NCBI RefSeq assembly: GCF_002159665.1 | Contig: NZ_NFJC01000003.1 | Span: 62,001 to 126,000 of the forward strand | Length of the DNA stretch: 64,000 nt | Direction: 5' to 3' | Source of the DNA: Desulfovibrio sp. An276 | Lineage (GTDB): Bacteria > Desulfobacterota > Desulfovibrionia > Desulfovibrionales > Desulfovibrionaceae | Part shown: one piece after another, positions 1 through 16,140 of the stretch | Numbering within the stretch: the stretch's first letter is position 1 | How the letters are laid out: every line of letters starts with the position of its first letter | The notes under the pieces: model-generated | Databases searched by the model: none | What the model saw: only the letters and a program-made list of their open reading frames with translations | Told to the model about the DNA's origin: nothing | Program-made: the position numbers and the translations under genes

Positions 1-70
1 GGAGCAGACTGTCCCAGGTGTGGTATCAGGGCCGCACAAGGCCTGGGCTACGAGCAGGAGGTTTTTTGTC

Positions 71-1855: not shown

Positions 1856-2030
1856 GTACGGATTTTTTCCGCACTTTCCAAATCCGGGGGAAAAGGGCTC
1901 ACAACGATCTTGCCAACAGGGGACATATTGGACAAAAATGCACCCTCCCATTTTTGTTCCATACAGTCCCTTTTCCTTCCTGCATTTCCCCCCACTCCCC
2001 CCTGGAAGGACCGGGCACGAAGGAGTCTTC

Positions 2031-2150
2031 ATGAGCAGCCTTGCAGTCCTTGCCAGGGCAGACCTTGCCGTTCTTTTGGCCGTCTTTTCCCTTCTTTTTT
2101 CCCTGCTCCTCTCCCTTGCCACACTGTGCCGCAGAGGAGGCAAGAGATGA
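2031..2150 (+). CDS. symporter small accessory protein (39 aa membrane peptide)
   Basis: A 39-residue protein made almost entirely of one hydrophobic helix followed by a positively charged tail (CRRGGKR). AAGGAG precedes the ATG at a good distance. Its stop codon overlaps the start of the downstream sodium/solute symporter as ATGA, so the two are translationally coupled. Small one-helix subunits of this kind are known directly upstream of some SSS-family symporters and are annotated as symporter small accessory proteins. I infer that it sits next to the symporter in the inner membrane and helps its assembly or activity. It is easily missed because of its size. Confidence 0.72.
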   Translation: MSSLAVLARADLAVLLAVFSLLFSLLLSLATLCRRGGKR

Positions 2151-3601
2151 TTGTCGCGGATATCCTTGTCTGGGTCCTCTACATAGGCGTCTTTTTCTGG
2201 CTCTCGCGCAAGGGGCAGGGACACGACGTCATGGTCACAGGTAAAGTGGGCTTTGCCGTGCAGGCCCTGGCCTATGTGGCAACCTACATTTCCGCTGTGG
2301 CCCTGGTGGGCTTTGGCGGTCTTGCCTACAAGTACGGCATGCAGATGCTCCTTGTGGCAGCCGGCAACGTCTGGCTCGGGACGTGGATCGTCTACCGCTT
2401 CCTCGCCTGGCCCACCCGCGTCTGCCAGCGCAATCTCGGTGCCCGCACACCAACCCAGCTCTTAGCAAAGGGGCACAGGTCTCCGCTGCTCGGGCGCTGT
2501 CTTGCCCTGATCTTCGCAGTCTTTCTCGGCGTCTACGCCTCTGCCGTGATCAAGGGCGCTGCCCTGCTCCTGGCCCAGATCCTGCCCATTCCCCTGTGGG
2601 TGCTCATCTGGCTTGTCGCACTTCTTGTGGCAGCGGCCATCTTCATGGGGGGCTTGAGGGGTGTTCTCTACACGGAAGCCATGCAGGGCCTTGTCATGAC
2701 AGTGGGCATTGTGATGCTCACTGTCGCAGTCTTTTCCGCAGTGGGCGGGCCGCTTACGGGCATGGAAAAACTTGCCGATCTTGCCCCCACGGATCTTGCA
2801 AACAACGGCTTCCTGGCTCTTTCCTCGGGGTCCGAGGGCTGGTTCATAGTCTCCCTTGTCATTGTCACCTCCGTGGCGGTCTGGTCCCAGCCGCAGATGA
2901 TACAGCGCCACTTTGCGCTGTCCTCGTCGGGCCAGGTCAATCGCATAACACCTCTCGCCATGCTGGTTTTGACTGTCCTTGTGGGCGGTGCCTATTACGT
3001 CGCCTGCCTGGCACAGGTAATCATGCCCGGCATTGCGAACCCCGACGAGGTGATGCCAACGCTCGTGAAGGCCCTTTTGCCGGACATTGGCCTGCAGATC
3101 TTCGTTTTGGCCATTGTCTCTGCCTCGCTTTCCACTGCCACGGCCATCTTCCATATTGCTGTCTCTGCCATTGCCGAAGACCTCCCTGCCCGCAAGGCAA
3201 CGCGTCCCATGTGGCTTTTTGCCATAGCCTTCTGCGTACTCCTCTCCGGTGGCTGCGCCCAGGTGAAGGGCGAAATCATAGCGATGCTCTGCACCACAAG
3301 CTGGAGTATCGTGGGATCCACAGTCCTTGTCGCCTACGTCGCCCTGGTCCGCTTTGGCAAGCGCAGCTGCCTTGCCGCCTGGTGCAGCGCAGTCCCGGGC
3401 TTTGTGGTCTGCCTTGCCTGGTATCTTTTCACGCATCCGCAGTTTGCCATCTTCCCCTCTCCATCGCCCGTACTGAACCAGATCCCGCCCTTCTTTGCCG
3501 GCTTTGCGGCTTCTCTGGCCGGATGGTTCCTTGGCTGGCTGTGCGACTTCGAGGGACGCAAACACTCCAATTTCTGGCCGGACACAAGCCCAAGAGCCTG
3601 A
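2147..3601 (+). CDS. sodium:solute symporter (SSS family)
   Basis: A 484-residue polytopic membrane protein of the sodium/solute symporter family (the PutP/PanF fold). Visible family features are the N-terminal GHDVMVTG-type loop, AYVATYISAVALVGFGGLAYKYG in the first helices (start at residue about 40), and WSQPQMIQRHFAL at about 245, typical of the SSS core. I place the start at the ATG overlapping the stop of the small upstream gene; the longer open frame to 1910 is not membrane-like and has no ribosome site. Substrate is unknown: short-chain carboxylates or amino acids are plausible for this clade. It ends about 100 bases before a tRNA gene. Confidence 0.85.
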   Translation: MIVADILVWVLYIGVFFWLSRKGQGHDVMVTGKVGFAVQALAYVATYISAVALVGFGGLAYKYGMQMLLVAAGNVWLGTWIVYRFLAWPTRVCQRNLGARTPTQLLAKGHRSPLLGRCLALIFAVFLGVYASAVIKGAALLLAQILPIPLWVLIWLVALLVAAAIFMGGLRGVLYTEAMQGLVMTVGIVMLTVAVFSAVGGPLTGMEKLADLAPTDLANNGFLALSSGSEGWFIVSLVIVTSVAVWSQPQMIQRHFALSSSGQVNRITPLAMLVLTVLVGGAYYVACLAQVIMPGIANPDEVMPTLVKALLPDIGLQIFVLAIVSASLSTATAIFHIAVSAIAEDLPARKATRPMWLFAIAFCVLLSGGCAQVKGEIIAMLCTTSWSIVGSTVLVAYVALVRFGKRSCLAAWCSAVPGFVVCLAWYLFTHPQFAIFPSPSPVLNQIPPFFAGFAASLAGWFLGWLCDFEGRKHSNFWPDTSPRA

Positions 3602-3699
3602 CGCAAAACAAGCTCAAGCAAAATTTTTTCGTCCGAATGCAATTTTCACGAAAAAAACACTTGCCATGCACGTCGCTTTAGCGTAGATACATCCCTCGC

Positions 3700-3783
3700 G
3701 TCGAGGTGGTGGAACTGGTAGACACGCTGTCTTGAGGGGGCAGTGGCTATGCCGTGCGGGTTCAAGTCCCGCCCTCGACACCA
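3700..3783 (+). tRNA. tRNA-Leu (GAG anticodon)
   Basis: An 84-base class II tRNA with encoded CCA. The acceptor stem pairs GTCGAGG (3700-3706) with CCTCGAC before discriminator A. The D-arm (GGTGGTGGAACTGGTAGACACGC), the anticodon loop CTTGAGGGG and a long variable arm fit tRNA-Leu, and the T-arm reads GCGGG TTCAAGT CCCGC. The anticodon is GAG, reading CUC/CUU leucine codons. It closely resembles the E. coli tRNA-Leu(GAG) layout. Confidence 0.95.
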
Positions 3784-3799
3784 TCGAGAAAACATCAAG

Positions 3800-3827
3800 G
3801 GTCTTCGAAAACGAAGGCCTTTTTTTT
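3800..3827 (+). terminator. rho-independent terminator after tRNA-Leu
   Basis: GGTCTTCG pairs with CGAAGGCC around an AAAA loop and is followed by eight T residues. It lies 17 bases after the tRNA CCA end and should end the tRNA transcript. Confidence 0.85.
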
Positions 3828-3909
3828 GCGGCTCAAAAACAGCCCAAAGGGCAAAAGCGAAAATTTTGTGCGAAAAAAACGTCCCTGCACTGTCTCGGGA
3901 CAGGAACAA

Positions 3910-4069
3910 ATGTGCCTTTTGTCACAAGAAAAAATCACTTTTTTTCTGTGAAAATTTGCTTTTTCCTCCAGTTTGCCCTGTCACAGTTTTCGTGTGACTC
4001 AAAAACATTGCGCAGAATTTTTTATAAAAATTTATTTTGCAATTTTTCACAATATTTATTTGTGAAAAA
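3910..4069. promoter_or_regulatory. AT-rich upstream region of split-Soret cytochrome with Crp/Fnr-like palindromes
   Basis: The 450-base gap between the tRNA and the cytochrome gene holds no gene I can see, but it is rich in TTGTGA/TCACAA half-sites. At 3910-3927 ATGTGC-N6-TCACAA resembles the HcpR/Crp-type TTGTGA-N6-TCACAA site. At 3980-3998 GTCACA and TGTGAC are 7 bases apart. At 4043-4069 a perfect 10-base inverted repeat (TTTTTCACAA / TTGTGAAAAA) has a 7-base spacer. A Crp/Fnr-family regulator of the next gene is inferred, not shown. Confidence 0.45.
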
Positions 4070-4236
4070 TATAATTACAACCTGCAAATTTCACAAGAAA
4101 GAACAGTTGCTCGCTCTATATTCCAATACAATACAATCCTGATCCATTGTTTGTCATTCCTATCCCTTTCGAGTAGTATTCCCATTGGTACAACCAGACG
4201 CAGAGTGCGTCATAATCGAAAGACAAGGAGTTTGCT

Positions 4237-5067
4237 ATGGATTTCTCGCGCAGACAGTGTTTGCTCGGTCTTGGCGGTGTCGCAGCCGGTTCGGCTCTTC
4301 TGAGCATGGTAGACAAGGCAGCGGCCCAGAATCCCCAGGCTGCCCCGAAACGTTTCGCGCAGATGAACGGCGAGTTCGGCTGGAAGCCGCACAAGCTTGA
4401 TCCCAAGGAAGTCGCAGCAGTTGCCTATGAAGGCTACTGGTACAAGGGCTACGCCTGTGGCTACGGCTGCTTCTATAGCCTGATCGGCCTCATGGCCGAG
4501 AAGTACGGCGCTCCCTACAATACCTTCCCCTTCACTATGCTCGAAGCCAACAAGGGCGGCATCTCCGATTGGGGAACAATCTGCGGTGCACTCTACGGCG
4601 CTGCTGCTGCCTATGCCCTCTTCTGGGGCAGGGACGAGCGTACCCCCATGGTGAACGAGCTGTACAGGTGGTACGAAATTACCAAACTGCCCGTCTACAA
4701 GCCTGCCAAGGCAATGGGTGTCGAGGGAGATATCCCGAGCAATGTGGCTGGTTCCGTCCTCTGCCACATCTCCGTCTCAAAGTGGTGCTACGCCAACCAG
4801 ATCGAAGCCACCAGCAAGAAGCGCAATGAACGCTGTGGCCGCCTTACCGCGGACGTGGCCGCCAAGGCCTGCGAGATCCTCAATGCAAAAATCGATGCTG
4901 GCAAGAACTTCAAGGGCGTTTTGGGCAAGCAGGAATCCGTGAAGGCCTGCGGCACCTGTCATCAGACCAAGGGCGAGGAAGCCAACTGGGCCAAGGGCGT
5001 GATGGACTGCACACCCTGCCATAACGGCAGCGAAGCCCTCATGAACAAGTTCAAGGATCATCCGTAG
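4237..5067 (+). CDS. split-Soret cytochrome c precursor (C_GCAxxG_C_C family)
   Basis: A 276-residue exported dihaem cytochrome. The N-terminus carries a twin-arginine-like signal (SRRQCLLGLGG, then a hydrophobic stretch ending near AQA), so it is probably folded with a cofactor before export to the periplasm. The middle part has the Cys-rich CGYGCFYS / CGALYGAA region characteristic of the C_GCAxxG_C_C family. Two haem-binding CXXCH motifs, CGTCH and CTPCH, lie near the C-terminus. Split-Soret cytochrome was described from Desulfovibrio desulfuricans, where it dimerises and stacks haem pairs; its exact redox role is still unsettled. AAGGAG precedes the ATG. It stands alone between its regulatory region and a strong terminator. 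Confidence 0.88.
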   Translation: MDFSRRQCLLGLGGVAAGSALLSMVDKAAAQNPQAAPKRFAQMNGEFGWKPHKLDPKEVAAVAYEGYWYKGYACGYGCFYSLIGLMAEKYGAPYNTFPFTMLEANKGGISDWGTICGALYGAAAAYALFWGRDERTPMVNELYRWYEITKLPVYKPAKAMGVEGDIPSNVAGSVLCHISVSKWCYANQIEATSKKRNERCGRLTADVAAKACEILNAKIDAGKNFKGVLGKQESVKACGTCHQTKGEEANWAKGVMDCTPCHNGSEALMNKFKDHP

Positions 5068-5220
5068 ATCTCTTTATTTCCATTGTTTTTGGCAGTTTTG
5101 CTGTCTAGGACAAAGAGTTTTCTTGTTCTATGTCTAAATCGATAAGTTGGCCTACTTATATCTAGTTGAAATTACTGAATTTCATTGTCTAGATGGCATG
5201 GCGTAATTTTGAAATTAGTA

Positions 5221-5254
5221 AAAGGCAGGACCCCTTTTCGGGTCCTGCCTTTTT
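5221..5254. terminator. bidirectional rho-independent terminator
   Basis: A 13-base stem (AAAGGCAGGACCC with GGGTCCTGCCTTT) closes a 6-base loop, with T runs on both strands. It separates the cytochrome gene (plus) from the glycyl-radical operon (minus) and can end both transcripts. Confidence 0.9.
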
Positions 5255-5286
5255 TGTTACAAAACTGAAAATACAAGCAGGGTACG

Positions 5287-6042
5287 CTATTTTCCCAAAT
5301 ATCCTCCATCCACAGGAATAACTGCGCCCGAAATATAGTCTGCTGCATCGCTTGCGAGAAAAACTGCAAGGCCGCACAAATCCTGCCCGGTTCCCCAGCG
5401 CTTCATGGGAATTCTTGACGTTATCTCCCTGTATTGCTCAGGATTCTTGTCTTTCATGTCAGCAGTCAGTTTTGTCGTCATATACCCCGGGGCTATAGCA
5501 TTGACGTGCACACCCCGACTTGCCCACTCATTGGAAAGCGCTTTTGTGAGCTGAGCAACTGCACCCTTGCTCGCAGTGTACGCAGGAATCATTTCGCTGC
5601 CAAAAAATGAAGTCATCGACGCCATATTGATAATACGTCCGAATCCATTGATAAGCATGTCTCGGCCAGCCAGTTGGGAGAGAGCAAAGATGGCATTGAT
5701 ATTGATGTCCATGATCTTTTTCCAGCGAGACAAGGGAAAATCCTCTGCTTTCTCCCTGTACTGAATACCAGCTCCATTGAAGAGGACATCAATTCTTCCT
5801 CCACACAGATCGCGTACTACCGAATATTCTTTATCAAGATTGTCTATATCGCTTAAATCGCATTGATGAAATTTTACACTACGATCTTTTTCAATACTCT
5901 TTGCTGAATCAGAAATATTTTGAGCAATATCCATTATGCATATATTGCCGCCAGCATCATAATATGCTTTTGCAATATCATAACATAATCCATTTGCTCC
6001 ACCTGTAATGATGATATTCTTATTTGTAAGATTAAGTTCCAT
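5287..6042 (-). CDS. short-chain dehydrogenase/reductase, KduD/gluconate-5-dehydrogenase-like
   Basis: A 251-residue classical SDR, the last gene of the glycyl-radical operon, 17 bases after the metallo-beta-lactamase gene. It shows the TGGANGLC nucleotide-binding turn at residues 13-20, the NGAG strand at 89-92, the catalytic YTASK (Tyr155, Lys159) and the C-terminal SGAVIPVDGGY. The third glycine of the usual TGxxxGxG turn is a cysteine (Cys20). Overall similarity is to sugar-acid dehydrogenases such as KduD or Gno, which oxidise or reduce a keto/hydroxy acid with NAD(P)H. In this operon it may reduce the carbonyl product of the glycyl-radical enzyme or prepare its substrate. I cannot choose between these from sequence. 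GC content is lower in the N-terminal half. Confidence 0.85.
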   Translation of the reverse strand: MELNLTNKNIIITGGANGLCYDIAKAYYDAGGNICIMDIAQNISDSAKSIEKDRSVKFHQCDLSDIDNLDKEYSVVRDLCGGRIDVLFNGAGIQYREKAEDFPLSRWKKIMDININAIFALSQLAGRDMLINGFGRIINMASMTSFFGSEMIPAYTASKGAVAQLTKALSNEWASRGVHVNAIAPGYMTTKLTADMKDKNPEQYREITSRIPMKRWGTGQDLCGLAVFLASDAADYISGAVIPVDGGYLGK

Positions 6043-6059
6043 AAATTACTCTCTATTTT

Positions 6060-6842
6060 TTATATTATTGTTCCTTTATTTATCCATTCTTTAATTTGAA
6101 TATTATCGTGACCAAATAACATTGTTGCGTTGTGTCTTTGTTTTAGAATTTTTAAAAATTCTATATTTTTAATAAAATCACTTGTATCTTTATTAATTGG
6201 TCCACCAGGAGGCAACATTTTTTCCCAATTTTCTCTAGTATACACTGCATCACTAGTGACAATTATATTTCCTTCAGATTTAGTTTTAATTATAAGCCCG
6301 ATTACTCCATTAGTATGTGATTTTTGAACAAAAATTGTTAAATCTGGTGCAAGTTCACATTTATCAGTAATTGGATGATAAATTGCACCATCAATATCAA
6401 ATAAAGATTTAATATATGCTCCAGTATCATTACTTGTAAATACATTTTTGCATGCATCTAGTAGCTCATTTTCGGACACTACAATATTTTTAATTGCTTT
6501 CGAATTTTTAAAAAATTTTAACCCACCAACATGATCAAAATGCAAGTGAGATAAAATAATCATATCAATATCAGAACAAGACAATCCTTTTGATTTAAGA
6601 GCTTCATCAACAGAAATATAATCACTAACTGGATAGATATTATTTATCTCTTCACCATACTCTATGCGATGATACGGGCTATTTCCAGTATCATACAAAA
6701 TGTTCCCCAGCGATGAGTGACGAATCAATAATGCACTAACTGGTGACTGATACATTACTTGTTCATCATATCCATCTACTATACGAAAATACTGGCACTT
6801 GAGATGGCCCAAAGGAAGTACATCCAATAACAATGAATTCAT
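6060..6842 (-). CDS. metallo-beta-lactamase-fold hydrolase, lactonase-like
   Basis: A 260-residue enzyme of the metallo-beta-lactamase fold close to the N-acyl-homoserine-lactonase group. The HxHxDH motif is SHLHFDH (His99, His101, Asp103, His104). The remaining expected metal ligands are also visible: His176 (SHTNG), Asp198 (TSDAVY) and His245 (FGHD), so a dinuclear zinc site should form. In related proteins this site opens lactones or cleaves thioesters. The gene is strikingly AT-rich and rich in AAT/AAA codons compared with the neighbouring radical enzyme, suggesting a different origin. It lies 17 bases after the amidohydrolase-fold gene. A role in opening a lactone or ester connected with the sulfonate substrate is inference only. 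Confidence 0.82.
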   Translation of the reverse strand: MNSLLLDVLPLGHLKCQYFRIVDGYDEQVMYQSPVSALLIRHSSLGNILYDTGNSPYHRIEYGEEINNIYPVSDYISVDEALKSKGLSCSDIDMIILSHLHFDHVGGLKFFKNSKAIKNIVVSENELLDACKNVFTSNDTGAYIKSLFDIDGAIYHPITDKCELAPDLTIFVQKSHTNGVIGLIIKTKSEGNIIVTSDAVYTRENWEKMLPPGGPINKDTSDFIKNIEFLKILKQRHNATMLFGHDNIQIKEWINKGTII

Positions 6843-6859
6843 AAAACAATACCTTGATT

Positions 6860-7705
6860 TTATTTAATATTTAACAGTTTGTATGCATTTTTATATAATA
6901 TTTTTTCCTCTTCTTCATTTGTAAAATTATAACTCTTTAAATCTATCACAGCATCTCGTATGTCGTAGCATGGATATGCAGATCCAAAAAGAATACGTTC
7001 ACACTGCATCCATCTGCATCCATTTTGATACATCTCTCTACCAGGTGTCATGGGATTGTGCATATATAAATCGGGAATGAGCCACACATTTGGCAGAAGC
7101 ATGGCGACATTAAAAATCTGAGGAATCCACGGATAACATGCATGGGCCACTACTATTTGCAGCCTGGGAAAATCGTTGGCAACATTCTGAATGTGTACTG
7201 GATTGCTGTATTCCAGATTGGGTCCCTGATACAGACTGGATGTGATGACTATGGGAATACCTGCCTGTTCACACATGGCATAAATTGGATAAAAAACAGC
7301 GTCGTCAGGGAATTTTGCAGGGTCATTCCAGCCAGGCTCCAGGGCGATACCCTTGAAACCATATTCCATACAGACATCCAACTCCTTGAGAGCAGCATAA
7401 ATCCCGGAAGAAAGATCTATGCCTCCAAAGGGAATGACCTGATCCGGATACAGATCCGCCAGTTCCTTGACATCTGCATTGGAAACAGAAGCTGCCTTGT
7501 TGCCAATGTTGCGGGCCATAACAACCCCTTTTTCAACACCAGCCTCCTTCATTTCCTGAAAAAAAAGATCCATGGATTTTTCATGGGCCGATGCAGTATG
7601 TGTGCCTCTCAGTCCCATTGGCCCAACGCTATTGCATACAGGATCAAAAATGGAAAGATTTTGAAATCCCTTGAACGGAGGACGGAGACGAAAATCGAAA
7701 ATCAT
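6860..7705 (-). CDS. amidohydrolase-2-fold protein lacking canonical metal ligands
   Basis: A 281-residue TIM-barrel protein of the amidohydrolase-2 (PF04909-like) group. Fold features are clear: the start MIFDFRLRPP, a central GFKGIALEPGW strand, VVAHACYPW (His188) and the terminal FGSAYP strand. However, the N-terminal HxH metal motif is replaced by Arg-Leu-Arg (residues 6-8), and the final catalytic Asp of the usual GSDxP is Ala243. The classical zinc centre therefore cannot form as in decarboxylases or lactonases of this group. It could use another metal set, act without metal, or bind rather than cleave its ligand. It lies between the activase and the lactonase-like gene and is the hardest member of the operon to explain. 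Confidence 0.75.
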   Translation of the reverse strand: MIFDFRLRPPFKGFQNLSIFDPVCNSVGPMGLRGTHTASAHEKSMDLFFQEMKEAGVEKGVVMARNIGNKAASVSNADVKELADLYPDQVIPFGGIDLSSGIYAALKELDVCMEYGFKGIALEPGWNDPAKFPDDAVFYPIYAMCEQAGIPIVITSSLYQGPNLEYSNPVHIQNVANDFPRLQIVVAHACYPWIPQIFNVAMLLPNVWLIPDLYMHNPMTPGREMYQNGCRWMQCERILFGSAYPCYDIRDAVIDLKSYNFTNEEEEKILYKNAYKLLNIK

Positions 7706-7790
7706 GTCTTGCTTCCTTCAATCTTTTGGCAATAGTACCAGAAAAGACTTTTATGCCCTATGTTACAAGAAAACCCGTCTATCTATCCAC

Positions 7791-8735
7791 TTATGAGACA
7801 AATTTCTCACCAAGACGAGAGGCTGCAACTTTCTGAAGATGTTCCATGAGATGCTTGTCCAGCGCGACTGACCCCATGGGATACGTTCTGTCCAATTGCT
7901 GATATTTCTGTGTTCCCAGGCGATGGTATGCAAGAAGCTCATAGGAAATATTGTGCGCAGGCAAGCTCTCTATAAAGTCACAAATATTTATTATTGCCTC
8001 TTCTGAATTATTGAATCCCGGAATGACAGGTGTGCGCAATAAAATCGGCAACTCTCTGAAGTTGGAAGACAATCTTTTAATATTGCTCAAAATTTGACTG
8101 TTATCTACGCCGGTAAATTTCTTATGCTGTTCTGGCTCAAGATGCTTGATGTCATAAATGAGCGTGTCCAGATACTGAGCTGCCTCAGACAAAACATCGT
8201 ATGAAGCCAGGCCACATGTTTCCATGGCAACATTCAGATACCTTCGTTCTGCCTCGCGAAGGAGTGCCAAGAGAAATTCTGGCTGAAAACACGGTTCACC
8301 ACCTGAAACTGTAAGCCCGCCTGAGCTTCTCTGGTAAAAGACAGCGTCCTTTTCGACTTCTCTCAGAGCATCTTCTACTGAAATTTTTCTTCCAAAAACT
8401 TTCAATGCACCAGCATGGCAACGAAGTGTGCATTCTCTATTACAGCTTAAAATCGTACACTTTTTTCTATCGATTATTGGAATATTTTTTTCACTTGAAA
8501 ATGAAATTGCCTTATTTGGACAGTCACTCTCACAATATGTGCACTTGTCTTTTGTCAAACATCTTGTTTCATTAAAAGCTAACTCATCAAATTGTGATTG
8601 TGATTCCGGATTGCTACACCATCGACAACGCAGAGGACATCCTTTAAAAAAAAGTATTGTACGTATTCCAGGTCCGTCATGCACGCTATACTTTTGAATA
8701 TTAAAAATATGCCCTGTAACAAGTTTATCATGCAT
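7791..8735 (-). CDS. glycyl-radical enzyme activating enzyme (radical SAM)
   Basis: A 314-residue radical-SAM activase. The cluster motif CPLRCRWC (Cys33, Cys37, Cys40) follows the typical YSVHDGPGIRT segment. An inserted ferredoxin-like domain (about residues 55-110) has two Cys clusters (CTYCESDC and CNRECTLRC region) for auxiliary [4Fe-4S] centres, as in activases of the dehydratase/lyase group of glycyl-radical enzymes. TVSGGEP is the SAM-binding GGE motif. It installs the glycyl radical on the neighbouring 838-residue enzyme using S-adenosylmethionine. AGGAGA precedes the ATG and sits directly against a strong hairpin that separates it from the enzyme gene. The closest named counterpart would be IslB/IseH if the partner is a sulfite-lyase. 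Confidence 0.9.
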   Translation of the reverse strand: MHDKLVTGHIFNIQKYSVHDGPGIRTILFFKGCPLRCRWCSNPESQSQFDELAFNETRCLTKDKCTYCESDCPNKAISFSSEKNIPIIDRKKCTILSCNRECTLRCHAGALKVFGRKISVEDALREVEKDAVFYQRSSGGLTVSGGEPCFQPEFLLALLREAERRYLNVAMETCGLASYDVLSEAAQYLDTLIYDIKHLEPEQHKKFTGVDNSQILSNIKRLSSNFRELPILLRTPVIPGFNNSEEAIINICDFIESLPAHNISYELLAYHRLGTQKYQQLDRTYPMGSVALDKHLMEHLQKVAASRLGEKFVS

Positions 8736-8746
8736 AAGTATCTCCT

Positions 8747-8779
8747 GGAGGGAGACTCTTTATAAAAAGAGCTCCCTCC
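8747..8779 (-). other. intercistronic hairpin between radical enzyme and activase genes
   Basis: GGAGGGAG pairs with CTCCCTCC, and inside it CTCTTT pairs with AAAGAG, giving a nested hairpin that ends just before the activase ribosome site. No T-run follows. It probably stabilises the upstream mRNA or lowers activase expression relative to the enzyme. Confidence 0.6.
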
Positions 8780-8804
8780 CTTTACATTATTACATGTTAC
8801 ACTG

Positions 8805-11321
8805 CTACATTCCAGAATGTTCTGTTCTGGCGATCAAGTCATCCTGAAGGTCCTGAGTTAGATCAACAAAATAAGCGCTGTAGCCGGCTACACGAACAAT
8901 CAGACTCCTGTATTTTTTGGGATCCTTTTGTGCTGCAACCAGAGTTTTGCGATTGATGATGTTGAACTGAACATGCCAGAGCTTGAGATCAATAAAAGAG
9001 CGTATGAAGTCTACCAGGCGACGAGTTCCCTGCTTGCCTTCAACAACCTTGGGGCTGAACTTCAGATTCAGCATACGGGATGCCCTGTTGATCTTGTCAC
9101 GGTTTTTGGATGCGTCATTGCTGAGCAATACGCAGGTAGGTCCGTGCATATCTGCACCATGGGAGGCAGACGTTCCGTCTGAAAGAGGTGTCCATGCCTT
9201 TCTGCCATTTGCAGAGGCGCTCACTACGCGGCCAAAGGGCACATGCGCTGTCACCGGCACATAGCGGGTATCGACGTAGATACCAAGTTCCTTGCCATAT
9301 TTCTCAAAGAACTCCATTGTGTGGCGCTCAACAGCGTGTCCTATGGAGTCAGCGTAGGGATCGTTGTTCCCGTAGCAAGGGCAGCTCTTCAGCAGTTCCT
9401 GCACGTCTTCAAACCCTTCAAAGTCTGCATCAAGGGCCTGAATGAGCTGATCCATGGTCAACGACTTGTCCTCGTACACAGTCTTTTTGATTGCAGCGAG
9501 ACTGTCTATCAGGGTACCGTAACCAATAAAATCTGCAAGACCACTTTCGTAGCCTCCGGGAATATGTTCCTTGTGGAGATCCAGACAGTACTTCATACAC
9601 AGGTCATGAAGGCTGGAACTCATGGGCACTGCAAAGAACTTCTCCCTCATCTTGTTGGTGATGTACTGGATATCCAGAGTCACTCGCAAATAATTGGTCT
9701 GCTGCACAAGGAAGGCATTCCAGAATTCATCCCATGTCTTCAGATTTCTGGGATCACCAGTCTCCACGCCGAGGCACATGTCGCCATACTTCTTCATGCG
9801 TCCGTTGTGCAGAACCAGTTCCAGTTCTGCAGGCATGTTGATGTACAGGCCGCCGGAAGTATACGTATCCAAATTGGGCATGCGGGTCTCAGTGCAACCG
9901 CTGGCAGCATAGTCATATGCCTGATTGAGAGGTGCACCCTTGGCGGTCATGATGGGTATTATTTCCTCATCATTGAACAGCTTGGGGTACCCTGTGCCAA
10001 ACTTTATTGTTTCTGCAATGTCTGCCAAGAAACGTTCTGGTGAACGGGTGTGCACACGTGCAGCCAGATCAGGATAATGAAGAGGAAATTCTCTCTTCGA
10101 TTTCAGGAACAGATAAGAAAGTTCATTGGTGGCATCTTCTCCTTCCGGAGTGAGCCCTCCGATTGTCACAGCTTCCCAGTGGGCATAGCCCTGGTTGAAG
10201 GATGTTCCCTGAGCTGAAATATACATTTCGATGAACTGAGCCATGCCGCACCATACACATTCCAGAAGTTCCAGGGCCTGTGTATCGGTAAGCGTCCCAT
10301 TTTCCTTATCCTGCTTGTAGAGCGGGTACAGATACTGATCCATGCGTCCATTGGAAATGGTTGTTCCCGTACGCTGTTCAAGCCTCGAAAACATCTGTAC
10401 AAAATACTGGCTCTGCACTGCCTGATGGAAGGTCTTGGCCGGATAGGCAGGCACCTGGCGGCAGTTTTGCGCAATAAGCAAAAGCTCAGCCTTTCTTTTG
10501 GGATCCTGCTCAACTGCGGCCATCTCTTCCGCTTTCTCTGCATGGCGTCTTGCCCACAGCATGATTGCATCGCTGACTATGATGACAGCTTCCAGGAAGG
10601 GGCGCTTTTCATGGTAATCTGTAGGACTGTTGGGATCCAAGGCATCAAGCCTTTCCTGAGCTTCCCTGCGGATATCCATGAAGCCCCTCTGGATCACCTT
10701 GCCATAATCATGCACCCACTGGAGAGATGAGCGCCATGAAGCCGTCTCGTTGACAAGATACCTTGGTGTTGTTCCGGCATCGTCAAGAAAGAGGATATCG
10801 TGCAGTTCCTTGGGTACGGCTGCGTTGAAGTTTTCGTGGTAGGTTTTTCCCTTCCAGTAGGGACCTATCTCTTCCTTGATAATTTTCATGTTCTCGGGAG
10901 AAATGTAGGCTGTGCCTCCTTCGCGCTCCCCGAGCTTTTCAAGAAAGGTTTCGTAGAAGTCTCCCTCGATTTCAGGATACAGGATCCCGTAACGCCCCTT
11001 GCAGCCAAGACGACCAGCAAGCAGTTGAAAATCGTCAATGTAAATCGTGATATTGCTCGCGATATTGTAAAGAGCCTTTGCCCAGCGGAGATTCAGAGGT
11101 TGTCCCTCTGTCTCCCTCATGCTCCTGGTGAAATACAGAGCTCTTTCTATATCAAGAGCAGGCTCCATTCCATCAAATGTCTGGATAATTTTGTAAATCC
11201 TTGGGCGATTTGCAGCAAAATCATCATTGCTGATTCCCAGAATACGTTTTTCCTGACCGGAATATGTGACCTCTTCCTGTTCTTCACAGCAGCAGGTATC
11301 GCAAACAGGTGCGTTCAACAT
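8805..11321 (-). CDS. glycyl-radical enzyme, isethionate sulfite-lyase-like (sulfonate C-S lyase)
   Basis: An 838-residue glycyl-radical enzyme. The radical site is Gly813 in RVAGYSAYF, and the thiyl/acid pair is Cys476 and Glu478 in ASGCTETR. This is not a pyruvate formate-lyase, which has a Cys-Cys pair. Residues I recall as forming the sulfonate pocket and active site of Bilophila IslA (Arg189, Gln193, Trp374, Cys468, Glu470, Arg678, Gly805) all have identical counterparts here at a constant +8 offset: Arg197, Gln201, Trp382, Cys476, Glu478, Arg686, Gly813. This supports C-S cleavage of a hydroxyalkyl sulfonate with sulfite release, which would feed dissimilatory sulfite reduction. Position 688 is Val where I recall Phe, so substrate range may differ. 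The N-terminus has an odd Cys-rich run (CDTCCCEE). Confidence 0.78.
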   Translation of the reverse strand: MLNAPVCDTCCCEEQEEVTYSGQEKRILGISNDDFAANRPRIYKIIQTFDGMEPALDIERALYFTRSMRETEGQPLNLRWAKALYNIASNITIYIDDFQLLAGRLGCKGRYGILYPEIEGDFYETFLEKLGEREGGTAYISPENMKIIKEEIGPYWKGKTYHENFNAAVPKELHDILFLDDAGTTPRYLVNETASWRSSLQWVHDYGKVIQRGFMDIRREAQERLDALDPNSPTDYHEKRPFLEAVIIVSDAIMLWARRHAEKAEEMAAVEQDPKRKAELLLIAQNCRQVPAYPAKTFHQAVQSQYFVQMFSRLEQRTGTTISNGRMDQYLYPLYKQDKENGTLTDTQALELLECVWCGMAQFIEMYISAQGTSFNQGYAHWEAVTIGGLTPEGEDATNELSYLFLKSKREFPLHYPDLAARVHTRSPERFLADIAETIKFGTGYPKLFNDEEIIPIMTAKGAPLNQAYDYAASGCTETRMPNLDTYTSGGLYINMPAELELVLHNGRMKKYGDMCLGVETGDPRNLKTWDEFWNAFLVQQTNYLRVTLDIQYITNKMREKFFAVPMSSSLHDLCMKYCLDLHKEHIPGGYESGLADFIGYGTLIDSLAAIKKTVYEDKSLTMDQLIQALDADFEGFEDVQELLKSCPCYGNNDPYADSIGHAVERHTMEFFEKYGKELGIYVDTRYVPVTAHVPFGRVVSASANGRKAWTPLSDGTSASHGADMHGPTCVLLSNDASKNRDKINRASRMLNLKFSPKVVEGKQGTRRLVDFIRSFIDLKLWHVQFNIINRKTLVAAQKDPKKYRSLIVRVAGYSAYFVDLTQDLQDDLIARTEHSGM

Positions 11322-11342
11322 ATATCATGCTCCTTTGTTGTC

Positions 11343-13250
11343 CTAGATAAGATTCGGGAGGAACAAAGAAATTGCGGGTATAAAGGTGACAAGAACCTGA
11401 CAGATAAGAAGTGCAATCAGGAAGGGGAAGCATGCCTTTGCAAGACTTTCAACAGAGACATCACCTATGGACGAGCCCACAAAGAGATTGACACCGATGG
11501 GAGGAGTGATGAAGCCAATGGCCAGATTGACCGTCATCATGACACCGAAGTGAATGGGATCGATACCGAAATCAACAACGATGGGAAGCAGGAGGGGAGT
11601 CAGAATGAGAATGGCTGCCAGAGCTTCCATGAACGTGCCGATTATAAGGAGGATGATGTTCAGGAGAATCAGCAGAGTAAACTTGCTGTGCGTGAAGCCT
11701 GTGATGAACTCTGCCAGCATTTCCGGAATGGATTCAATGGTGATGATATTACCGAAGATGCCAGCCATGGCGAAGATAAACAGGATGTTGCCACTGGTGA
11801 CACAGCTTTCGATACTGCAGTCGAACAGCTTCTTGAAACTGATCTCCTTGTAGACAAACATGCCCACGTACATGCCGTAGAAGGCTCCGACTGCTGCGGC
11901 CTCTGTAGGTGTCATGATGCCACCGTAGATGCCGCCAAGAATGATAACCGGGACCATCAACGCCCATCTGGCTTCCACAAAAGCCTTGACCTTTTCCTTC
12001 GACCCGGCAATGGTGTTGCCTCTCCAGTTGTTCTTCTTGGATATCCACCAGGCAACTATCATAAGAGCAAAACCACACAGCAGTCCGGGCATGACACCAC
12101 CGGCAAACAGCTTTGCAATGCTCTCCTGAGAAGAAATACCGTAGATAAGCAGAGGATTGCTTGGTGGGATCATCACACCAATGATGCCAGCACACGTTAC
12201 AATTGCGACACTGAAGGTTTTGTCATAACCTCGCTCGATCATCGCCGGGATAGTGACGCATCCGATGGCAGCCACAGTAGCCGGGCCAGAGCCGCTGATA
12301 GCAGCAAAAAACATGCAGGTGGCTATTGTTGCCAGGGCCAGTCCACCGGTCTTGTCTCCTAGAAAAGCATCGGCAAGCTTAAGCAGTCTTCTGCTGAGCC
12401 CTCCTTCGCCCATGAATACGCCAGTAGCAACGAAGAAAGGAATGGCCATGATTGCAGAATTGTCCAAGCCGGTATACGCAATCTGTGCAACATAGTCGGA
12501 AGGAATCGTATCACAGGTCCAGATGACTGCCAGACAAGCGCCGGCTATGCTGACAGCAATGGGTGCGCTAAATGCCAGGAAGAAGGCAAAATATCCGAGC
12601 AGAACTGCCGGAGCGTTTTCCCAGCCATCGTACAGAAAGAGTGGAGCTACAATTGCAGCTGCAAGTGCAATACCTATTATTGCTGGAAGTATACCAAATT
12701 CACGACATGATCTGTATAGTCTCTGAATCAATCTGACAATTACTAATCCAAATCCTACAGGAAGAATGGAATATGGAAGAGCATAGGAAATGTGAAGAGC
12801 TGCCGATGTTTGGGGGAAACGTTGTATCATCGAAATATGATCCAATCCCTCAAAGACAATTACTCCTGAAATTAATATAAACAATAATGTATTTGCATTA
12901 TCTATTACTGCTTTTCCAAAATCATTAAAAAAGTCATAAACTATAGTAACACGAATATCCTTTGTTGTTTTAATGACTATCGGAATGGCCAAATATGTAA
13001 TCCATACAAAAATAAATCTAGATAATTCTTCTGTCCATACTACTGAGTTTGCATCTCCAGAAAATACATTTATTACTATATATCTATAAACAGTCTGAAA
13101 AAATATTGCATGTATTATAATAAGAAGACCAATAAACAAAAATATTTTTTCTGCATTATTATCAAGCCATGAAACAATATTTCTTGGTGAAATAGTATTG
13201 GTCATTGTGTACCCAGATTCATTGACAGTTGCATCCATTTTTTCCTCCAT
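11343..13250 (-). CDS. TRAP transporter fused permease (DctQM)
   Basis: A 635-residue inner-membrane permease in which the small DctQ part (about residues 1-190, four spans) is fused to the large DctM part (about 200-635, with PPSNPLLIYG and GFITPPIGVN motifs of TRAP large subunits). It takes substrate from the upstream binding protein and imports it with sodium. It lies 21 bases before the radical enzyme gene. The DctQ part is clearly AT-rich, while the DctM part has normal GC, as if two segments of different origin were joined. Bilophila and Desulfovibrio isethionate loci also carry TRAP transporters, so a sulfonate is the likely cargo. The start is the ATG after a GGAGG-like site at 13253-13258. 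Confidence 0.9.
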   Translation of the reverse strand: MEEKMDATVNESGYTMTNTISPRNIVSWLDNNAEKIFLFIGLLIIIHAIFFQTVYRYIVINVFSGDANSVVWTEELSRFIFVWITYLAIPIVIKTTKDIRVTIVYDFFNDFGKAVIDNANTLLFILISGVIVFEGLDHISMIQRFPQTSAALHISYALPYSILPVGFGLVIVRLIQRLYRSCREFGILPAIIGIALAAAIVAPLFLYDGWENAPAVLLGYFAFFLAFSAPIAVSIAGACLAVIWTCDTIPSDYVAQIAYTGLDNSAIMAIPFFVATGVFMGEGGLSRRLLKLADAFLGDKTGGLALATIATCMFFAAISGSGPATVAAIGCVTIPAMIERGYDKTFSVAIVTCAGIIGVMIPPSNPLLIYGISSQESIAKLFAGGVMPGLLCGFALMIVAWWISKKNNWRGNTIAGSKEKVKAFVEARWALMVPVIILGGIYGGIMTPTEAAAVGAFYGMYVGMFVYKEISFKKLFDCSIESCVTSGNILFIFAMAGIFGNIITIESIPEMLAEFITGFTHSKFTLLILLNIILLIIGTFMEALAAILILTPLLLPIVVDFGIDPIHFGVMMTVNLAIGFITPPIGVNLFVGSSIGDVSVESLAKACFPFLIALLICQVLVTFIPAISLFLPNLI

Positions 13251-13332
13251 TTCCTATCAGTATTCCTTCCACTAAATTCTGATAAGAGGCCAAAAACAAG
13301 ATTTCGCTGTTTTTCTGAGATTGCTCTCTAGG

Positions 13333-13370
13333 CCACACGCACAAATGCCGGCTGGAATTTGTGCGTGTGG
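13333..13370 (-). other. stable hairpin between TRAP binding protein and permease genes
   Basis: A perfect 14-base stem (CCACACGCACAAAT with ATTTGTGCGTGTGG) and a 10-base loop lie directly after the binding-protein stop codon. No T-run follows it on the minus strand. Such hairpins commonly protect the binding-protein mRNA and give it an excess over the permease. Confidence 0.7.
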
Positions 13371-13396
13371 AGGAGGCATGGCACGCTAGCAGAGAG

Positions 13397-14422
13397 CTAC
13401 TTCATAGCTTCCATAAACAAATTGTATGCTTCAGGAGAAATCTTGGTGCGGAATTCGTCCCACACAGGCTTGGTCAGTTCCTTCAGCTTTGCGTAATCGG
13501 CATCCGAACACATGTTGATTGTGACACCCTTGGACTTCATCAAAGCGTAGGATTCCTCGTTGAGCTTCTTGCTGAGAGCGCGCTCATATTCCACTGCCTC
13601 AGCTGCGGCTTCCTTGATTATGGCGCGTTGTTCATCTGTCAGAGAATTCCAGAGCTCAAGGTTCATGACAACGACATGCCCATAGTAGTTGTGCTTTGTA
13701 TCAAGGGCATAAGCTGCGACATCACCAATATCGCCCAGGGCTCCAATAGAGGCATTATTCAGAGCCATGGCATCCACGGTTCCCTGACGCATGGCAGTGA
13801 TGGTTTCACCCCAGGGCATGGGAACAGGGTACATTCCAAGAGCCTTGGCTACGGCAATTTCGACAACCGAGTCAGTTACACGTACCTTGACGTTTCTAAG
13901 TCCATCAACAGTTGTAACGTTCTTCTTGCTAAACTGAAAATCGCGATAGCCCACATCACCAAAATACACCATCTTCAGATTAATCTTGTTCAGAACCTTT
14001 TCATAGTACTGTCCAAGAGGCCCGTTATCCATGGCAGCAAACAGCTTGTCCAGGGCCTTTGGATTCATTGGATCAACGATATACGGCAAGTCAAACAGCA
14101 GAAAATCAGGAGCAAACAGGGACAAATTGCCTGTTGAAATGGAACTCATGGAAAGGCTGCCTTTCTGGGCACCTTCAGTTGTCACACGGTCGCTTCCCAA
14201 TATGCAGTCACCAAAGACCTTAAGCCTGATCTTGCCACCAGACTTTTCTTTCAAAAGCTCACTGAACTTCAGACACCCCATGGAAACCTGATCACCCTTG
14301 TTCATAGGATGTCCAAGCCTGAGGTTGAGCTTTTTATCTGCAGCATAGGATTGCCCTATTGCAAGAAAACCTACCAATACAAGACAAAGAGCCATCAAGC
14401 CAAATCGAACGAGCGATCTCAT
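13397..14422 (-). CDS. TRAP transporter substrate-binding protein (DctP family)
   Basis: A 341-residue periplasmic binding protein, first gene of the operon. A Sec signal (about residues 1-27, ending QSYAAD) is followed by the DctP fold: LRLGHPMNKGDQVSMG near the mature N-terminus, DLPYIVDP, the ligand-contact segment KVRVTDSVVEI where an Arg normally holds the ligand acid group, and PMPWGETITAMRQGTVDAM. AGGAG stands 6-7 bases before the ATG. It delivers an organic anion, here most likely a sulfonate, to the fused QM permease. The promoter region upstream has two perfect palindromes. Confidence 0.9.
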   Translation of the reverse strand: MRSLVRFGLMALCLVLVGFLAIGQSYAADKKLNLRLGHPMNKGDQVSMGCLKFSELLKEKSGGKIRLKVFGDCILGSDRVTTEGAQKGSLSMSSISTGNLSLFAPDFLLFDLPYIVDPMNPKALDKLFAAMDNGPLGQYYEKVLNKINLKMVYFGDVGYRDFQFSKKNVTTVDGLRNVKVRVTDSVVEIAVAKALGMYPVPMPWGETITAMRQGTVDAMALNNASIGALGDIGDVAAYALDTKHNYYGHVVVMNLELWNSLTDEQRAIIKEAAAEAVEYERALSKKLNEESYALMKSKGVTINMCSDADYAKLKELTKPVWDEFRTKISPEAYNLFMEAMK

Positions 14423-14464
14423 GATAATCTCCTGCTAAGATATTTTTAATAGATAACTACCACT

Positions 14465-14493
14465 GAATTTCATGTATCAAATACATGAAATTC
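14465..14493. promoter_or_regulatory. perfect 13-bp palindrome upstream of the TRAP/glycyl-radical operon
   Basis: GAATTTCATGTAT and ATACATGAAATTC flank a 3-base spacer, 43-71 bases before the binding-protein start. No T-run follows on either strand, so an operator is more likely than a terminator. The ATTTCA...TGAAAT core is shared with a second palindrome upstream. Confidence 0.6.
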
Positions 14494-14629
14494 ATATTCC
14501 CTTATTTTTATAAATAATTTTATAAGAAAATAATTTTTTTATTTTTATTCCTTTAAAAATATATTGACTTTTATAAATTAAAATTTTTTGTCAGGAATAA
14601 AAACTAATTTTTTATTTTCTTCATATACA

Positions 14630-14648
14630 TTATTTCACGATGAAATAA
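14630..14648. promoter_or_regulatory. second ATTTCA/TGAAAT palindrome
   Basis: TTATTTCA and TGAAATAA flank CGA. It shares the ATTTCA half-site and 3-base spacing with the palindrome at 14465-14493, suggesting two sites for the same regulator. Confidence 0.5.
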
Positions 14649-15282
14649 ACTCTATTTATTAGAAACTTGCTAAGAATTTCCTGGGAATTCTTCATCCTGT
14701 AAAATTCTTGTGCCTTTCTTCACTTGGTTTTATTCAATACCCACCAGAAAAATAAGTTCAATAACAGGTGCTATCGATAGGACCTTTTTTTGAAAAAAAG
14801 CGAGGAAAGCCATCCAATCCAAGCGCTTTATAAAATAATTTCATAAACTTATGAACATCAAAAAAAATTTCCCCCCTTAGTCCTGCGCTCAATGTTTCCC
14901 GGGAGTCCGCGAACTGCCCATAGCTCACGGACTTGCCCCTTTTTATCTGGTATGCCAAGCAACACTCTTCACAAGGATTAAACAGTCGCAGCTCAACGGA
15001 ATTTTTGCCTTTCTGGCTCTTGTATGCTAACTATTTGCTGCGGAAACAGGCCGAGCCCAATCAGCTTGTGAATTGTTGCGGATTGCCCTTCCTCCGGAGT
15101 TGCGCAGGAATGCCTGTAAAGACAAGCAGTATCTCCGCCCTGACAATCTCTTGGCTGGTTGCCTTACTGGGTGTACACCCAAGCTTACTATTATACTTCT
15201 GTCTTCATAAGCTGCTCAATCCAGTCTTTTATACCACAAAATAATTCATCTATTATCTTTTTGGCTTCCTAGCAATTTCAAC
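14649..15282. other. intergenic stretch with no convincing gene
   Basis: The flanks are AT-rich, but about 14880-15200 is more GC-rich. On the minus strand short frames look protein-like in pieces (for example KRGKSVSYGQFADSRETL around 14870-14960) but are broken by stops and frame changes. It may be a decayed insertion or gene remnant. I recognise no family. Confidence 0.3.
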
Positions 15283-15304
15283 TTGTTATTCTATTTGATA
15301 ACAA
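15283..15304. promoter_or_regulatory. inverted repeat before the Crp/Fnr-type regulator
   Basis: TTGTTAT and ATAACAA are separated by 8 bases, ending 16 bases before the regulator start. Size and symmetry suit a Crp/Fnr-family dimer, so autoregulation is possible. The sequence differs from the ATTTCA palindromes near the operon. Confidence 0.45.
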
Positions 15305-15320
15305 TTTATAGGAAAGCTCT

Positions 15321-15968
15321 ATGGATAAAATATATGATTTTAATCAATTAATTGTTCCCCATTTTTTTGATGTTTCCAATGCGCCAAGTATTCCCGAAAA
15401 ATTTTTTGCACTGGGAAAAAAATCTCTTTATCATAAAGATACAGTAATAATAAAATATGGAGAAAAATTAAATTGCATATATTATATTCATAGTGGTTCC
15501 ATATTGGGATTCCGTCAAGACAATGAAGAAAAAATGAGTCTTGCCTATATAATTAAAAATGGATTCTTTGGAGAAGGATGGTTCTTTTCTCAGCGTAATA
15601 GCAGAGACGAAGTTATTATAGGCGATGACAGTATAATTACCATGTTCCCCAAGGATGTAGTAGATCACTTGATTACGTATCCTGAAGTAGTAAAAAATTT
15701 CTTGTTTACTTTAGGCGTAAAAACAACAAGTGTTGAAACAAAATTTGAAAATTTCAAAAACAAATCTGTCAAAGATCGATTAAAAATTTTTATAACAAAT
15801 CAATTTTCTCTTTTTGGTGATAGCAACAAAATAGAATTAAAATTGAATCAAAAAGACATTGCAAATATTATTAGTGCTCACCCTGTTTCAATAAGTCGGG
15901 CTTTTTCTGAGCTAAAAAAGGAAATGGACATTGAAATTTCTAGAAACAAAATAATTATTTCTAAATAG
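15321..15968 (+). CDS. Crp/Fnr-family transcriptional regulator
   Basis: A 215-residue regulator with an N-terminal cyclic-nucleotide-binding-type beta barrel (about 25-125; GEKLNCIYYIHSGSILGF, GFFGEGWFF) and a C-terminal winged helix-turn-helix (about 165-215; LNQKDIANIISAHPVSISRAFSEL). It has no Fnr-type N-terminal cysteine cluster, so it senses a small molecule rather than oxygen through iron-sulfur. It is divergent from the TRAP/glycyl-radical operon and is its likely local regulator, responding to the substrate or a product. The gene is very AT-rich compared with core genes and is likely acquired together with part of the locus. Confidence 0.85.
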   Translation: MDKIYDFNQLIVPHFFDVSNAPSIPEKFFALGKKSLYHKDTVIIKYGEKLNCIYYIHSGSILGFRQDNEEKMSLAYIIKNGFFGEGWFFSQRNSRDEVIIGDDSIITMFPKDVVDHLITYPEVVKNFLFTLGVKTTSVETKFENFKNKSVKDRLKIFITNQFSLFGDSNKIELKLNQKDIANIISAHPVSISRAFSELKKEMDIEISRNKIIISK

Positions 15969-15979
15969 CATAATTTTCC

Positions 15980-16071
15980 CAGAGTGGTAGAGGCCGTCGT
16001 ATATGGCTTGTCCAACTGATTGATTTCTTTGGGGGCCCTCATTGGAGTATCCGCCGACATCTACCACTCTG
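15980..16071. repeat. 92-bp element bounded by 12-bp inverted repeats (MITE-like)
   Basis: CAGAGTGGTAGA at 15980-15991 and its exact complement TCTACCACTCTG at 16060-16071 bound a short stretch with no gene. Beyond 12 bases the ends still match partly (CCGTCG and CGCCGAC). It could be a miniature inverted-repeat element or the ends of a deleted insertion sequence. A long-stem RNA structure after the regulator gene is the alternative. Confidence 0.4.
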
Positions 16072-16140
16072 AAATTTCCTAAATAGGAGGAAGCGTTTTC
16101 CTGTTTCTAAGAATACAGGAATATTCGCGCCAGCATTTCC

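Follow-up and report, generated by a model that had tools for sequence, protein, structure and literature searches.

A low-GC island of Desulfovibrio sp. An276 encodes a glycyl-radical enzyme of the sulfite-lyase type, most likely neither IslA nor HpsG, and a putative amidohydrolase-fold partner

The glycyl-radical enzymes (GREs) that a 2026 review names as acting on sulfonates are, in the part of its text available, only IseG/IslA, HpsG and HpfG (PMC12890257). The accessible text of a rumen study reports homologs of hpsGH and islAB in Mailhella and mentions no further type (PMC13219744), and hydrogen sulfide formed from sulfonates in the gut has been traced by islA and hpsG (e.g. PMC8397734, available part). 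In a survey of titles and abstract openings, with most subscription papers outside its coverage, no C-S-cleaving GRE besides IslA/IseG and HpsG was found. Regarding the residues involved, the IslA variants tested at R189, Q193, C468, E470, R678 and G805 are given as inactive in the available text of PMC8473560, and the sulfonate triad is described as conserved within the IseG cluster and absent from other GREs in the accessible part of PMC6453916. The present analysis concerns a stretch of 64,000 nucleotides (the window; G000:C23:62001-126000) from the gut sulfate-reducing bacterium Desulfovibrio sp. An276, whose genome comprises 3.2 Mb in 98 contigs. An island of low GC content in this window carries a GRE that, judging by its sequence, is most likely of the sulfite-lyase type and neither IslA nor HpsG, together with its activase, a TRAP transporter, a regulator and three further proteins with enzyme folds.

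Gene families were assigned by Pfam and NCBIfam profiles, and the GRE (8805-11321, minus strand) was placed in a third clade by profiles, residues and trees. It matches PF01228 and PF02901 and presents both hallmarks of the family, the RVAGYSAYF glycine loop and the active-site cysteine in GCTE. Against the PDB it scored 1179 and 1175 bits with 5ymr and 7kq3, which we take to be IslA, and 1102 bits with 6lon, presumably HpsG (5ymr and 6lon carry general names). The NCBIfam model of (2S)-3-sulfopropanediol dehydratase (HpsG), NF048011, accepts the window GRE with 1358 bits at a cut-off of 1000. The same model also accepts seven of the ten other GREs tested (among them a Mailhella IslA with 1507 bits, an HpsG with 1502 and four further proteins with 1174-1330). 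Besides IslA, no fewer than four other types of GRE exceed its cut-off. Since it accepts so many types, automatic names are unreliable in this group and the HpsG label decides nothing.

Two trees were built, one of 64 rows and one of 39 rows (25 were dropped as distant, off-group or redundant). In both, the window GRE forms one clade with those of two Mailhella loci, L086 and L087, and of locus L131 (SH-aLRT 100). It lies outside both the HpsG clade of the 39-row tree (nine rows, 100) and the clade of core IslA (14 rows, 92; 13 rows, 99). Its placement as sister to HpsG has a support of 92 in the 64-row tree and only 50 in the 39-row tree.

For the comparison of residues, 70 GREs were aligned, with partial sequences in some rows, and numbered as in Bilophila IslA. 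The window, L086 and L087 enzymes retain the sulfonate triad R189/Q193/R678 (R197, Q201 and R686 in the window GRE) as well as C468, E470, W374, T312 (T320) and G805, and the triad is also intact in L131. Concerning the pocket, all four clade rows have valine at position 682 (V690), where IslA has phenylalanine and HpsG isoleucine, and all four have alanine instead of S684 (A692). The core IslA rows have F682, as do the GREs of the type encoded on contig C32. Moreover, the three orthologs share 46 fixed positions that are unlike the majority of both IslA and HpsG, one of them being a gap in those. The first-pass annotation had proposed a sulfite-lyase-type enzyme in a possible new sulfonate locus, and had taken a place inside the isethionate clade with high identity as a sign of the contrary; the fully supported clade outside the core IslA clade and its own pocket support a sulfite-lyase-type GRE that is neither IslA nor HpsG. 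Besides an IslA-type GRE on contig C1, the genome encodes a further GRE with the triad at C32:15665, and since IslA is present elsewhere, the window GRE would be an extra activity.

The whole unit sits on one island (5068-16140) that is absent from the near relative G029. There, the flanking genes, encoding a split-Soret cytochrome (88%) and a MerR protein (78%), are adjacent, about 420 bases apart, whereas 11.07 kb separate them in the window. All eight genes of the island lie in the low-GC stretch, with a GC content per kb of 29-51% over 5001-16000 versus 53-62% on either side up to 24000. On the minus strand, the TRAP solute-binding protein DctP (13397-14422) and a fused DctQM permease (11343-13250; Pfam and NCBIfam) precede the GRE, which is followed by its radical SAM activase (7791-8735), an amidohydrolase-fold protein (AH, 6860-7705), a lactonase-type metallo-beta-lactamase-fold protein (MBL, 6060-6842; 29.8% GC) and a KduD-like short-chain dehydrogenase (SDR, 5287-6042). 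A Crp/Fnr-family regulator (15321-15968, plus strand; Pfam; 28.4% GC) is divergent. The gaps are 85 bases between AH and activase and 17 bases both between MBL and AH and between SDR and MBL. The activase is above the cut-off of TIGR02494 and, with 419.3 bits, just below that of the NCBIfam HpsH model (430). The reading frames confirmed the positions, order, strands and gaps that had been annotated before, and the profiles confirmed the transporter, GRE, activase and divergent regulator.

The genes at the loci of relatives were located by tblastn and codon scoring. In the Mailhella locus L087, the GRE (86%), activase (71%), AH (86%), MBL (68%), SDR (84%) and regulator (47%) form one cluster, in which the first five have a GC content of 55-57%. 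The locus L086 presents the regulator (53%), DctP, DctQM, GRE (89%), activase and AH up to the contig end, so it gives no information on MBL and SDR. In both loci the regulator is upstream on the strand of the operon, versus divergent in the window. The seven flank proteins of the window have no match at L086 or L087, which puts the locus at another site in these two. An MBL of at least 60% identity was found in two of the 79 genomes surveyed of the genus, here taken as Mailhella (the own one and G096), beside a GRE in both. AH, MBL and SDR belong to the unit with the GRE, since L087 retains all three and the island that carries everything is missing from the relative. The first-pass annotation had assigned them to it on gene order, and the recurrence of the set in L087 (with a different TRAP transporter), and in L086 as far as its contig goes, together with the island and the genus survey of AH described below, upholds this assignment.

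The promoter scan counted 32 promoter-like sites versus 25.0 in shuffles (standard deviation 4.6) and nine terminator-like sites versus 9.0, so that single sites mean little. It listed no minus-strand promoter-like site in the 85-base gap between AH and activase; a 9-of-12 site upstream of MBL, within the AH gene, is at the level of chance. The result that the first-pass annotation had set against its own reading (a GRE within the isethionate clade and last three genes that have their own promoter and occur elsewhere without it) did not come about, but orthologs of MBL and SDR do stand beside another GRE (locus L122, below). No convincing shared regulator site was seen upstream. The 146-base gap between DctP and DctQM holds a hairpin that is a possible attenuator (13333-13370, minus strand; 17-base arms, 94% complementary). 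A perfect hairpin with 14-base arms and T runs on both strands (5220-5253) is a likely terminator for the operon and the facing gene. A short hairpin spotted by eye in the gap between GRE and activase (8750-8785) could reduce activase expression. At the island edge, right after the regulator, an imperfect inverted repeat (15980-16071; 24-base arms, 83%) is a possible remnant of an inserting element or a terminator; the longest direct repeat common to both island edges is of 8 bases.

AH matches PF04909 with 94.9 bits (cut-off 26.4) and its predicted structure has a pLDDT of 92.8. Among the matches listed by VIA-align the closest is PDB 3irs (Z 39.4), the uncharacterised Bordetella protein BB4693, for which we know of no role; the next ones are other amidohydrolase-fold entries, including metal-dependent decarboxylases, with Z of 26 and less. 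AH lacks the metal ligands of PF04909 amidohydrolases. An ordinary paralog (L065) has DIHTH and GTDWP where the window AH has DFRLR and GSAYP, so that the metal-binding HxH has become RxR (R6 and R8) and the last Asp has become Ala (A243). Because of these replacements, it is improbable that AH works as a conventional metal hydrolase. In 29 aligned members of its family D4, R6, R8, R65 and H188 are invariant, and the Ala is present in 90% or more.

The 79 genomes of the genus were surveyed for matches to the window GRE at E<=1e-200 and to AH at E<=1e-20. A GRE match was found in 55 genomes and AH in 53, all of them among the 55, while none of the 24 genomes without GRE had AH (Fisher p 3e-18, although the genomes are related and not independent). 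The GRE-bearing genomes without AH are G071 (71% complete) and G003 (93%). Considering 47 IslA places, taken by score band with a few partial or odd rows omitted, AH lies within 15 kb of 37, and the other ten have none on that contig; it is also within 15 kb of 9 of the 24 HpsG places. AH clades mostly track the GRE type, although HpsG-linked rows are partly intermingled with outlying IslA-like ones. The sister of the window-type AH is a group of AHs that mostly stand alone but co-occur with HpsG, which is present in 12 of the 14 genomes with AH at 50% or more (the window's included) versus 13 of the 65 others (p 6e-6).

A wider search gave AH matches in 99 of 395 genomes of the phylum, many of them partial and perhaps ordinary amidohydrolases, and since these matches are unsorted by RxR, the tight link between AH and GRE is claimed for the genus only. 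Outside the family, a GRE is present in 11 genomes; AH was matched in eight of them, only partially in G103, G143, G178 and G272, and not at all in G357, G371 and G468. In Bilophila, the islAB cluster ends with gene 00649, annotated as 'hypothetical protein, predicted amidohydrolase function' (PMC8667426 Table 1, in the part available, which gives it no role). This annotation is the sole trace found in print, no role having been proposed for AH in the titles and abstract openings surveyed. Judging by its co-occurrence with the GREs of the genus, AH is predicted to be a partner dedicated to this family of GREs.

Regarding transport, the nearest solved relative of DctP is the isethionate receptor OaIseP (PDB 8t9t; E 1.3e-83, 41% identity). 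According to the accessible text on OaIseP, its sulfonate contacts are R156, R177, N217, S95, N98 and Y153, its hydroxyl contacts are residue 77 and H244, and HEPES and MES bind without closing it (PMC11668362). Among 21 receptor rows compared, the site is complete in all eight from IslA loci, position 153 being Y or F. The window DctP keeps 11 of the 15 IseP site positions, including R156, R177, N217, S95, N98, D77, H244 and W200, with the changes A40N, Y153V, L221I and S242Y; at 153, 221 and 242 it differs from all eight IslA-locus receptors. The L086 receptor resembles it, with T40 and M221. D77, W200, N217 and H244 are missing from the L087 receptor (29% identity to IseP), and import therefore differs at that locus. 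These features suggest that the ligand of the window DctP is a small hydroxysulfonate similar to isethionate, not isethionate itself, and large ligands are disfavoured because HEPES and MES fail to close OaIseP.

The metal site of MBL is complete, with HLHFDH (HxHxDH), later His, Asp and His ligands and an Asp-x-x-Tyr as in lactonases. It reached 107 bits on the AhlS model (cut-off 475), and the cut-offs of the N-acyl homoserine lactonase equivalogs were not reached. For SDR, the best NCBIfam models are those of KduD (253.7 and 236.4 bits, below the cut-offs of 369 and 339); the runners-up include gluconate 5-dehydrogenase models, also under their cut-offs. In genome G096, locus L122 presents an SDR (72%, cut by the contig end) and an MBL (61%) beside a GRE without the triad (N, N, K). 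This locus (2-10304) combines in one cluster the triad-less GRE, an activase, a gene of the ALAD (HemB) family, a DASS-like transporter, two MBLs and the SDR. Looser sets are found in L126 (GRE 49%, DASS-like transporter, FMN reductase, MBL 22%, epimerase and AH 53%) and in the Lachnospiraceae locus L090 (AH 36%, GRE 45%, two MBLs and TRAP). GREs of this group are thus repeatedly accompanied by proteins of the lactonase fold, dehydrogenases and RxR proteins.

Regarding all these data, the balance tilts slightly towards the island being a complete desulfonation unit, whose GRE would free sulfite from a C3-C4 hydroxysulfonate other than isethionate. As its receptor site suggests, the TRAP transporter would import a small sulfonate with a neighbouring hydroxyl, and the activase, going by its family, would place the radical on Gly813 of the GRE. 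By analogy with IslA, R197, Q201 and R686 would grip the sulfonate, C476 would abstract a hydrogen from the hydroxyl-bearing carbon, E478 would take the hydroxyl proton, and sulfite would depart, leaving a ketone or aldehyde. V690 and A692, in place of the Phe and Ser of IslA, may give room for a group beyond isethionate, and because of this room a C3-C4 substrate seems probable. The sulfite could enter Dsr respiration, dsrA being present in the genome above the profile cut-off. SDR probably reduces or oxidises a carbonyl or hydroxyl, and for MBL the probable reaction is hydrolysis of a lactone or ester in the carbon part, while it is speculation that the two-arginine site of AH handles sulfite, a sulfonate or a carbonyl-bisulfite adduct. 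In its broadest form, which is put forward only tentatively, the proposal is that of a third radical C-S lyase for a sulfonate not known to be respired, where lactonase and dehydrogenase would process the carbon part and the lyases of the genus, including IslA and HpsG, would share a conserved non-metal RxR AH partner binding sulfite, sulfonate or adduct.

Several observations weigh against such a unit with a new substrate. V682 is not private to the clade, being also present in L089, L126, L127, L129, L130, L136 and several more distant GREs. Of the 56 columns in which IslA and HpsG are distinct, the orthologs side with IslA in 28 and with HpsG in eight, the rest being neither or not fixed, and the union of the window clade with IslA is not rejected (p-AU 0.118); because of both, a shifted isethionate enzyme is possible. 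The loss of Y153 in DctP removes one sulfonate contact, and L087 has a different TRAP transporter, placed between AH and MBL. Furthermore, MBL and SDR need not act on the desulfonation product, because L122 pairs them with a triad-less GRE. The GRE could instead be a second lyase for isethionate or dihydroxypropanesulfonate (DHPS), perhaps its R enantiomer, gained by transfer, in which case SDR and MBL would handle hydroxyacetone or some side product. The likeness of DctP to the isethionate receptor, T320 and the 28 IslA-like columns, and the nearness of AH to the HpsG-co-occurring group fit this idea, which is nevertheless rather doubtful: the genome already has an IslA-type GRE, the pocket and the 46 ortholog-fixed positions are unlike both enzymes and, to our knowledge, the known isethionate and DHPS routes need neither a lactonase nor an SDR. 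The lack of acetaldehyde-processing genes, which had been taken as a departure from the known route, does hold, as PF00171 has no match in the locus. However, the aldehyde dehydrogenase matches of the genome (C36, C12 and C1:58826-59920) are near neither the window locus nor the IslA locus (C1:292320), and because the IslA locus is also without them, this lack was dropped as evidence.

The first-pass annotation had suggested that the substrate may be a larger or masked sulfonate, opened before or after the C-S cleavage. In such a reading, MBL and AH would open a lactone, an ester or a sugar acid (e.g. sulfogluconate), and SDR would act on the resulting C5 keto group. The full lactonase-type site of MBL keeps a lactone step possible, and the KduD and gluconate 5-dehydrogenase models point in the same direction for SDR. 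As a whole this substrate now looks improbable, since DctP retains most contacts that close over isethionate while HEPES and MES do not close OaIseP (PMC11668362, accessible text). In addition, the changes in the GRE pocket are only small, SDR is below the KduD cut-offs, and an AH without metal ligands makes amide or ester opening doubtful. It is a good deal less probable still that the GRE removes water and not sulfite, in the manner of the sulfonate dehydratase HpfG. Only small changes set GRE eliminases apart from one another, and this would allow it. The DHPS activity of HpfG (PMC12890257, available text) is also in its favour, but the HpfG dehydratase model NF048009 gives the window GRE 456 bits, below its cut-off of 1000, and the residues match those of C-S lyases. 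Equally slight is the chance that the GRE is not a sulfonate enzyme at all: a GRE of the wider group without the triad adjoins the same MBL-SDR pair in L122, but the triad is intact in the window, L086, L087 and L131, and the receptor is of the sulfonate type.

Other GREs were met in the relatives. In L131 (7585-14864), the GRE of the window clade (61%) is followed by an aldehyde dehydrogenase (Pfam) and preceded by what is likely, as judged by eye only, a tripartite tricarboxylate transporter; no activase match was found within the locus. Four more distinct GRE types are present in the genus (L129/L130/L136; L067 15662/L121/L128 8730; L126/L127; and L089), and three of them retain the sulfonate triad, with L089 having T for Q193. 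In L129 and L130 an RxR AH is directly after the GRE. L067 (9119-11530, own genome, C32) and L128 (2756-5161) also encode, beside an activase, GRE-like proteins with 40-42% to the window GRE, where Ser or Tyr replaces the catalytic Cys and the glycyl loop is degraded (MPFAGFTPLP, MPFEGYAALP). They are possibly radical-free or altered-radical enzymes, and further related matches are found in G090 and G096. In Binatota and cyanobacteria (L091, L092, L097), GREs of 42-44% have an SDR between GRE and activase and present Q193 as N and W374 as F.

If the proposal is true, a further enzyme type is named HpsG by the current NCBI model, and a hitherto unrecognised dietary or host sulfonate would be respired yet misnamed. 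The near-complete pairing of GRE with RxR AH also offers a neglected pathway gene that is directly testable.

Compared with IslA/IseG, the window GRE has 60-64% identity to most Mailhella IslA-type rows and the same triad, C468, E470, W374, G805 and T312, but F682, S684 and I192 of IslA are V, A and L, the enzyme is outside the core IslA clade, and its operon additionally has MBL and SDR. With HpsG (about 57-60% identity to its rows) it shares the catalytic set and L192, whereas I682, S684, A312 and RSALQW of HpsG are V, A, T and RSSLQW in the window GRE, outside the HpsG clade. DctP has 41% identity and 11 of 15 site positions in common with OaIseP, whose A40, Y153, L221 and S242 are replaced by N, V, I and Y. 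MBL resembles the AiiA/AhlS-type N-acyl homoserine lactonases in the metal motif, His, Asp and Tyr, but is far below the NCBIfam cut-offs. AH has the fold of the BB4693 TIM barrel, with 37% identity and a common DFRLRPP motif, and the islAB cluster of Bilophila likewise ends in an amidohydrolase-annotated gene, the two being compared by annotation and not by sequence.

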